Source: Halorubrum sodomense (GTDB lineage Archaea; Halobacteriota; Halobacteria; Halobacteriales; Haloferacaceae). From it: a DNA stretch of 64,000 bases. The stretch covers positions 682,001-746,000 of the forward strand of contig NZ_FOYN01000002.1 of NCBI RefSeq assembly GCF_900111935.1. Reading direction: 5' to 3'. The notes beneath the pieces are model-generated. The model did not search any database. It saw nothing but the letters and a program-made list of their open reading frames with translations, and was not told the origin of the DNA. A program made the translations under genes and the position numbers. Below are positions 25,720 to 26,323 of this stretch, in pieces; positions within the stretch are counted from its first letter, which is position 1, and each line of letters starts with the position of its first letter.

Positions 25720-26323
25720 GTTACCGTCCGTCCGACGAGCGCGCACTTCAAGCCGTTGTCGCCCGCGGCGACGCGAGACGGACTGAAGCCCGGCGAGCAT
25801 GCCCTTTATAAACAAATGCGGTGGCGCGTGCCTGCGAGCGGCCGACAGGCCGCGAGCAGCCCGCGCGAGGGAGTCGGGCGCGCCGAGGGCGACCGGAGGG
25901 AGCCCGACGGACGCGCCCGACGAGGCTGGGGAGGCGAGAGGTGCCGTGCTGTGCGGGGCGGGACTCAAAGGGGCGGCCGCGAGGACGAAGCACGGCGACG
26001 TAAGCACCGCAGCGAAGGAGCGGTAGCGACTGAGCGAGGAGCGCAGCGAGCCGCGCGAGTCCTCGCGGCTGGGGCTTTGGAGTTGTTCACCGCCGTTCAG
26101 CGGTCAGTTATTTATAAGCGAGCGACAGGGGTTTCGGAGGTGTTCGCCGTCGATCCGGTATCAACCATCTATAAACAAGCGGCTTGGGCAGTGGAAGGGG
26201 CCACCGCAGCGTCAGCAGTTTTCAAGCAGATATACTGGGTTCTGATAGCGTTCGATCTCGGCACGGGGAGAAAGTACGAACGATCGGTTCACACGCCGGC
26301 GCCCTATCCGAAAACCGGCCCAC
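25720..26323. other. Non-coding stretch holding modular repeat copy 1
   Basis: These 604 bases separate mutL from the ABC ATPase gene, both on the minus strand. The left end is the mutL promoter; 25805-26238 is repeat copy 1; the rest shows nothing recognisable. Short open frames across it are low-complexity and share peptide scraps (GDVSTAAKER-like) with frames in the other copies. They reflect repeated DNA, not proteins. Confidence 0.7.
25805..26238 (+). repeat. Modular non-coding repeat, copy 1
   Basis: Read on the plus strand. The head is TTTATAAACAAATGCGG (25805 on) followed by TGGCGCGTGCCTGCGAGCGG. The middle has GAGGCTGGGGAGGCG and GGGACTCAAAGGGGCGGCC, then an imperfect stem-loop whose arms are GCCGCGAGGAC (25976-25986) and GTCCTCGCGGC (26059-26069), an 11-bp perfect match. 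The tail is three 57-base units starting at 26068, 26125 and 26182, each ending with a TATA-like motif (TTTATAAG, TCTATAAA, AGATATAC). The element is more eroded than copies 2 and 3 in its first palindrome (GGAGTTGTTCACCGCC). It lies between mutL and an ABC ATPase gene. Confidence 0.8.

Follow-up and report, generated by a model that had tools for sequence, protein, structure and literature searches.

The three copies of a noncoding element that an earlier note described in this window (the whole 64,000-nucleotide stretch of the Halorubrum sodomense genome that we analyzed) are a small sample of a large family of intergenic folded repeats that is found in most haloarchaea. The selected fold consists of Watson-Crick helices with sheared-type G.A steps between them, an internal loop with GGG opposite GGG, and end loops of the form GNA or GNNA. 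The earlier note argued that the structure is under selection. Comparison of the copies strongly supports this and adds that the selection is strand-specific: the covariation of the arms, the excess of G.T over A.C intermediates, and the asymmetry of the tandem G.A hairpins all point to the G-rich strand, and no other, being selected as a long irregular folded single strand.

The element and its copies in the window

We located the blocks and the stem arms of all three copies where they had been reported. With up to 3 mismatches allowed, the core GGGACTCAAAGGGGCNGCC matches the window exactly 3 times, versus a mean of 0.08 times in shuffled sequences. The features are as follows.

25805..25814, + strand: TATA-like head of copy 1, TTTATAAACA; a variable accessory, outside the conserved core
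25823..25869, + strand: domain A of copy 1, the hairpin GCGCGTGC-CTGC[GA]GCGGCC..GGCCGC[GA]GCAG, with a tandem G.A internal loop
25870..25923, + strand: domain B of copy 1, the variable hairpin GTCGGGCGCG..CGCGCCCGAC; the arm sequences vary among copies
25922..25959, + strand: block C of copy 1, the conserved G-rich linker GAGGCTGGGGAGGCG...
25960..26079, + strand: domain D of copy 1, the core hairpin, with 31 modelled pairs, the GGG/GGG internal loop, and tandem G.A steps (123.8 bits, model R1)
26066..26190, + strand: tail of copy 1, units of ~58 bp whose start resembles the 3' end of D (GGCTGGGGCTTTGG...TTTATAA)
32199..32625, - strand: copy 2, the whole element (head, A, B with inserted hairpins, C, D, and tail)
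32301..32418, - strand: domain D of copy 2 (120.9 bits, model R1)
53145..53604, - strand: copy 3, the whole element, with an eroded head
53247..53364, - strand: domain D of copy 3 (136.5 bits, model R1; the top score in the 846 kb searched)

Copy 1 has genes for MutL and a MalK-type ATPase as its neighbors; copy 2 lies between two divergent genes, one for a GST-domain protein and the other for an FAD oxidoreductase; and copy 3 has genes for EPSP synthase (aroA-type) and an ArsA-type ATPase. We rejected the idea of a regulon: the genes that flank the three copies are unrelated to each other. The window also contains an ordinary known feature, an S15-Halobacteria ribosomal protein leader (8702-8772, + strand; Rfam match with 72 bits, E = 1e-13).

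Domain D, of ~118 nt, is the core of the family. Its parts come in a fixed order: [C/G]AAAG, then GGG opposite GGG, then the covarying stem, then a series of 2-bp helices, and finally a small end loop. The 2-bp helices are set apart by G.A-type steps (GAC/GA, AA/GCA, A.A, GNA/GA, and GA/GA), and the foot of the domain is GGGACT[C/G]AAAGGGGC. In Halorubrum, the copies have domain A (a hairpin with a tandem G.A step), the variable hairpin B, and the G-rich block C on the 5' side of D. On the 3' side, the 3' end of D recurs in tail units of ~58 bp, and the 200 bp past D contain 0-4 instances of TTATAA per copy. The 5' blocks, including block C, have relatives in Halobaculum and other genera, and a plasmid of Halorubrum salinarum bears 5' domains of the Halorubrum type. 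Some Halorubrum loci (L003, L005, L051, L059, L310, and L330) have a longer conserved leader ahead of domain A (...GAGTATCGCAGATCG...TATTTAAATA..CCGTGAGCGACGGCGACGA..CGCTTATAAA). The inner helices of domain A covary across 107 Halorubrum copies; the alifold structure apparently has its outer helix in the wrong register, and domain A is left out of the G.T counts given below.

Some copies contain additional perfect hairpins at a small number of fixed positions, and these optional inserts grow and shrink. Nested hairpin modules (such as TGGTTCGAGAGAGCGAAGCTCTCTC...) lie at fixed positions within D at loci L009, L011, L019, L029, L036, L042, L054, L058, L075, and L084. Their loops occur in both orientations, and they resemble a second small mobile hairpin. 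At L039 (1402-1519, - strand), the whole inner part of domain D is inverted between palindromic arms, so the hairpin can flip. Other loci, such as L128 and L139, have the core GGGTGGGACTGAAAGGGGC ... GGGGCTTTC, which places four G tracts around the foot of hairpin D. These four tracts could form a duplex-quadruplex hybrid, helped by the high K+ of haloarchaeal cells.

Distribution and placement across haloarchaea

As the earlier note proposed, we searched for the core in the rest of the genome and in other Halorubrum. This genome has 30 exact matches to the core (13 on one strand, 17 on the opposite strand) and no matches to the reversed pattern. All 30 of the genomes that we sampled from the genus contain the exact core, with 1-100 copies each. 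For a wider search, we used a covariance model (R1) that was built from 64 aligned copies of domain D; these came from this genome and others of its genus, along with three plasmids from outside the genus. R1, whose E-values are rough because of a short calibration, had at least 61 matches in this genome, at least 150 in G132, 131 in G095, and 88 in G255. Overall, it matched 123 of 155 Halobacteria genomes, from 47 of 59 genera. It had no match in 53 genomes from the phylum's other classes, which limits the false-positive rate of the model. In a scan of named genomes, the G form of the core (GGGACTGAAAGGGGC..GGGGCTTTC) was found in Haloarcula, Natrinema, Natronococcus, Halorussus, Halobaculum, Haloterrigena, Halostagnicola, and others.

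The family appears to be undescribed. Rfam had no matching family at gathering or relaxed thresholds (the best E-values were 0.74-8.4, with scores far below gathering). Among open-licence papers, we found no description by name or by sequence string, and neither the RepRanger survey of archaeal REPs nor the survey of GTAG/CGTC REPs mentions haloarchaea. The elements are also not obviously viral: there was no blastn match in INPHARED, and two exact patterns had no match in IMG/VR.

Every one of 31 sites lies between genes, even though 85% of the contig is coding. Sites in gaps between convergent genes are more common than expected (10 of 31 sites, versus 71 of 530 gaps), and flanking genes are as often in the same orientation as the copy as in the opposite one (31 and 31); these counts use gene calls from a simple predictor. 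Outside Halorubrum, 18 loci contain head-to-head pairs with spacers of 25-36 bp. In G255, we counted 22 head-to-head pairs, with wider spacing, but no pair that was tail to tail. In Halorubrum, we saw only single copies or distant tail-to-tail pairs. At two Halorubrum loci (L006 600-1420 and L021 380-1410), a single gene is bracketed by two opposite copies, tail to tail; we named these by eye from the sequence as a phosphoribosyltransferase-like gene and a hisA-like gene.

On two complete Halorubrum chromosomes (G132 and G095), the orientation of the copies reverses at oriC1, and copies on both sides point to the origin. The orc1 gene was taken as the marker of the main origin, as inferred from its conservation. 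In G132, the best orientation score is at 290 kb and the orc1 gene is at 270 kb; 3 of 301 trial origins score as high. In G095, the best score is at 2.73 Mb and orc1 is at 2.72 Mb, with 4 of 310 trial origins scoring as high. In both genomes, the best-scoring place on the whole chromosome is within 20 kb of the orc1 gene. Within 300 kb of oriC1 in four pooled genomes, 70 copies agree with the rule and 26 disagree (p = 8e-6, which is too small because the genomes are related and share loci; the peak at oriC1 does not depend on this p value). By this rule, the structured strand serves as the template of the leading strand.

We compared orthologous loci using one genome per species. Of the 30 Halorubrum loci that we read at the mutL site of copy 1, nearly all hold the element in that place, either as a copy or as a remnant. 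Several species have a copy at the locus of copy 2; its orientation is the same there, and its stem arms are quite different. Hairpin D alone is lost, or mostly lost, in L389, L390, and L400; L395 retains a reduced remnant; and L396, L402, and L403 have a short gap with no element. We could place about 22 loci of relatives on the contig of this genome, and at about 9 of these a full copy is lacking here. Given both the inheritance in place and the empty sites, the copies are old and are occasionally gained or lost, and the arms have been exchanged or corrected in step. The empty sites are seen between species that are too distant for placing boundaries or target duplications.

The earlier note suggested a non-autonomous mobile element as one explanation. 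Part of this is plausible, in that genomes have up to 150 or more copies and sites are empty in some species. On the other side, the copies at the two window loci that we traced are old and largely inherited in place, and we found no mobilizing enzyme. The statement that no transposase or coding gene accounts for the elements holds up. No gene family recurs within 2 kb of 155 loci, where we found only spurious open reading frames over the element and orthologous neighborhoods. As a candidate partner, we considered the Y1 transposase (PF01797, RAYT-type). It is absent from G000, G013, G016, G033, and G255, which have 22 to 88 copies each and include the source genome, and G005, which has no copies, has ten Y1 matches. 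CRISPR was also rejected: the core hairpins stand alone or as pairs at scattered sites, and we saw no arrays of spacers.

Covariation and strand asymmetry

That the two arms change together while pairing is kept is true far beyond the three copies. In a MAFFT alignment of 64 copies, which was not fitted to the model, 23 of 31 pairs show compensatory changes on both sides, with 97.1% of cells paired, versus 27-42% in slid controls. Among 113 copies from other genera, two-sided changes are seen at 27 of the 31 pairs, and pairing is kept in 97.6% of cells, versus 34-43% in slid controls; this alignment was fitted to the model and leans towards it. For the 113 copies, the covariation score is 0.609, which none of 500 shuffles reached, and slid controls scored 0.034-0.064. 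Covariation of this strength is exceptional.

The intermediates differ between the strands. We counted 58 G.T versus 17 A.C in the 64-copy set, which is mainly Halorubrum, and 113 versus 18 in the other genera (68 versus 5 sequences, p = 3e-15, an indicative value as the sequences are related). One pair is T.G in 23 of 64 and 34 of 113 copies. Similarly, there are 233 hairpins with tandem GA and just 1 with the complementary tandem TC. Because mutations hit both strands of DNA, G.T and A.C should be about equally common if selection is not strand-specific. The asymmetry argues against a role in double-stranded form only, and also against neutral repair of quasi-palindromes.

Folded DNA or RNA

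The folded single strand that is selected could be DNA or RNA. The end loops suit DNA. GNA triloops make up 83 of 91 in Halorubrum and 91 of 124 elsewhere, with no TNC, and tetraloops are GNYA (19) rather than GNRA (2). Stable RNA tetraloops are GNRA and UNCG. GNA and GNNA loops that are closed by G-C pairs form extraordinarily stable DNA minihairpins (PMC4686876). Loops of GNA, or of GNNA with a pyrimidine, thus fit DNA minihairpins better than RNA. The energy parameters favor RNA. With RNA parameters, the conserved inner fold is recovered from single sequences (z of -4.3 to -7.9), and the whole conserved fold has an MFE frequency of 0.5-0.6 in the ensemble. DNA parameters did not recover the inner part of the fold from single sequences, but the DNA parameter set may give too little credit to GNA loops and tandem G.A.

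We would give roughly an even chance to the reading that the family works as folded single-stranded DNA, as class-wide, dispersed, intergenic imperfect palindromes that are like giant REP/BIME elements. We count in its favor the high copy number and strictly intergenic sites, the strand-specific structure, the head-to-head pairs, the reversal at oriC1, the DNA-type loops, and the loss of just hairpin D at orthologous sites (L389, L390, and L400). We count against it the better fit of RNA parameters, the lack of a mobilizing enzyme, the absence of definable insertion boundaries or target duplications, the position of the structured strand as leading-strand template, and the kinship among the genomes used for the orientation test, whose counts are not independent.

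The main rival is a structured RNA family: the G-rich strand would be transcribed, from its own promoter or by read-through, the folded RNA would bind a protein or a ligand, and the copies would be paralogous RNA genes. Besides the folding energies, the RNA reading draws on the tolerance of wobble pairs on the G-rich strand, including the pair that is often T.G, and on the enrichment of a TATA-like box, which is found within 45 bp upstream of 40 of 124 copies (versus 1 of 124 in a control window). But the head TATA, which the earlier note took as a shared block and a possible promoter, is not constant. It is missing from two-thirds of copies, and it is gained and lost among orthologs at the locus of copy 2. 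Where present, it is 15-22 bp before stem A, so transcription would start inside stem A. The 5' ends in head-to-head pairs are only 25-36 bp apart, which is too short for two archaeal promoters, and the copies follow no orientation rule relative to neighboring genes. These observations do not support a small-RNA family with its own promoter. Also, copies near oriC1 are head-on to the replication fork, which is the opposite of what a transcribed unit would favor, and the tetraloops are of the wrong type. We see the RNA reading as possible and would hold it tentatively.

Selfish or neutral palindromic DNA is an unlikely explanation. Here, template switching and gene conversion would re-match the arms, and covariation would arise without selection for structure. 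Orthologous loci show arms that were replaced as blocks, loops are found in both orientations, the inner domain of L039 is inverted, and hairpin inserts expand and contract, all as such a process might produce. But symmetric repair predicts equal numbers of G.T and A.C, while G.T exceeds A.C by 6 to 1, and repair would erase the conserved mismatches, while the GA/GA, GNA/GA, and GGG/GGG loops are kept across families. Given the strand asymmetry, this reading is already disfavored. A double-stranded site (for instance, for the nucleoid, gyrase, or control of replication forks, with the palindrome as a duplex or a cruciform) would be consistent with the intergenic sites, the enrichment between convergent genes, and the replication-polar orientation, but it is very improbable, as the constraint is on one strand only and duplex sites have no need for complementary arms of changing sequence.

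If the family does act as folded single-stranded DNA, the G-rich strand would form a hairpin when it is exposed at replication, and a structure-specific protein may bind the folded strand, by analogy with REP/BIME hairpins, the ends of IS200/605 elements, and integron attC sites. Copies would spread rarely, through an enzyme supplied in trans, and would then persist in place while recombination between copies, or template switching from one to another, replaced their arms. The oriC1-linked bias in orientation may reflect the polarity of replication acting on insertion or on survival. A more specific proposal, which we offer as a speculation that could well be wrong, is that a new haloarchaeal protein recognizes this class-wide selected hairpin (with its G.A steps, its GNA loops, and possibly a G-quadruplex formed by the conserved GGG tracts) at replication forks, and disperses or maintains 60-150 copies per chromosome, with their orientation set by oriC1; the family would then be a structured-DNA element that goes with no known class of enzyme.

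By analogy, bacterial REP/BIME (REPIN) elements and their RAYT (TnpA-REP) are the closest functional counterpart. Both are dispersed, high-copy, intergenic imperfect palindromes with conserved mismatches, a structured strand, and inverted pairs, and most copies have no enzyme gene beside them. However, the core hairpin is 118 nt instead of 20-40, it lacks the GTAG/CGTC foot tag, it has a conserved GGG/GGG loop and serial G.A steps, and several high-copy genomes have no Y1 transposase. Two defining features of REP/BIME thus fail (the hairpin size with its foot tag, and the RAYT), so we did not file the family there. IS200/605 and attC hairpins act on the lagging-strand template. Like the ends of IS200/605 elements and attC sites, our elements fit single-stranded DNA hairpins whose arms vary while the structure and extrahelical bases are kept, but we found no integrase or Y1 partner, the conserved motifs are different, and the orientation rule is opposite to their usual lagging-strand preference. 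The PATEs and SMRs of Haloquadratum are also noncoding haloarchaeal repeats without a transposase that are tied to palindromes or inverted repeats (Dyall-Smith et al. 2011, PMC3119063). What sets PATEs apart is palindromes near their ends that are related to IS605-type transposons, together with insertions specific to single strains (PMC3119063). By that description our family seems distinct: judged by Y1 transposases and recurrent neighboring genes, we found no link to IS605, and the family has strong covariation and class-wide spread. Rfam's RNA families share the strong covariation, but none of them matches.

In G132, about 150 copies of about 430 bp come to near 2% of the genome, and the family is among the more abundant noncoding sequences in many haloarchaea. 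It is a clean comparative case for telling a selected DNA structure from a selected RNA structure, and it opens a way to seek a new structure-specific enzyme or replication factor in archaea.
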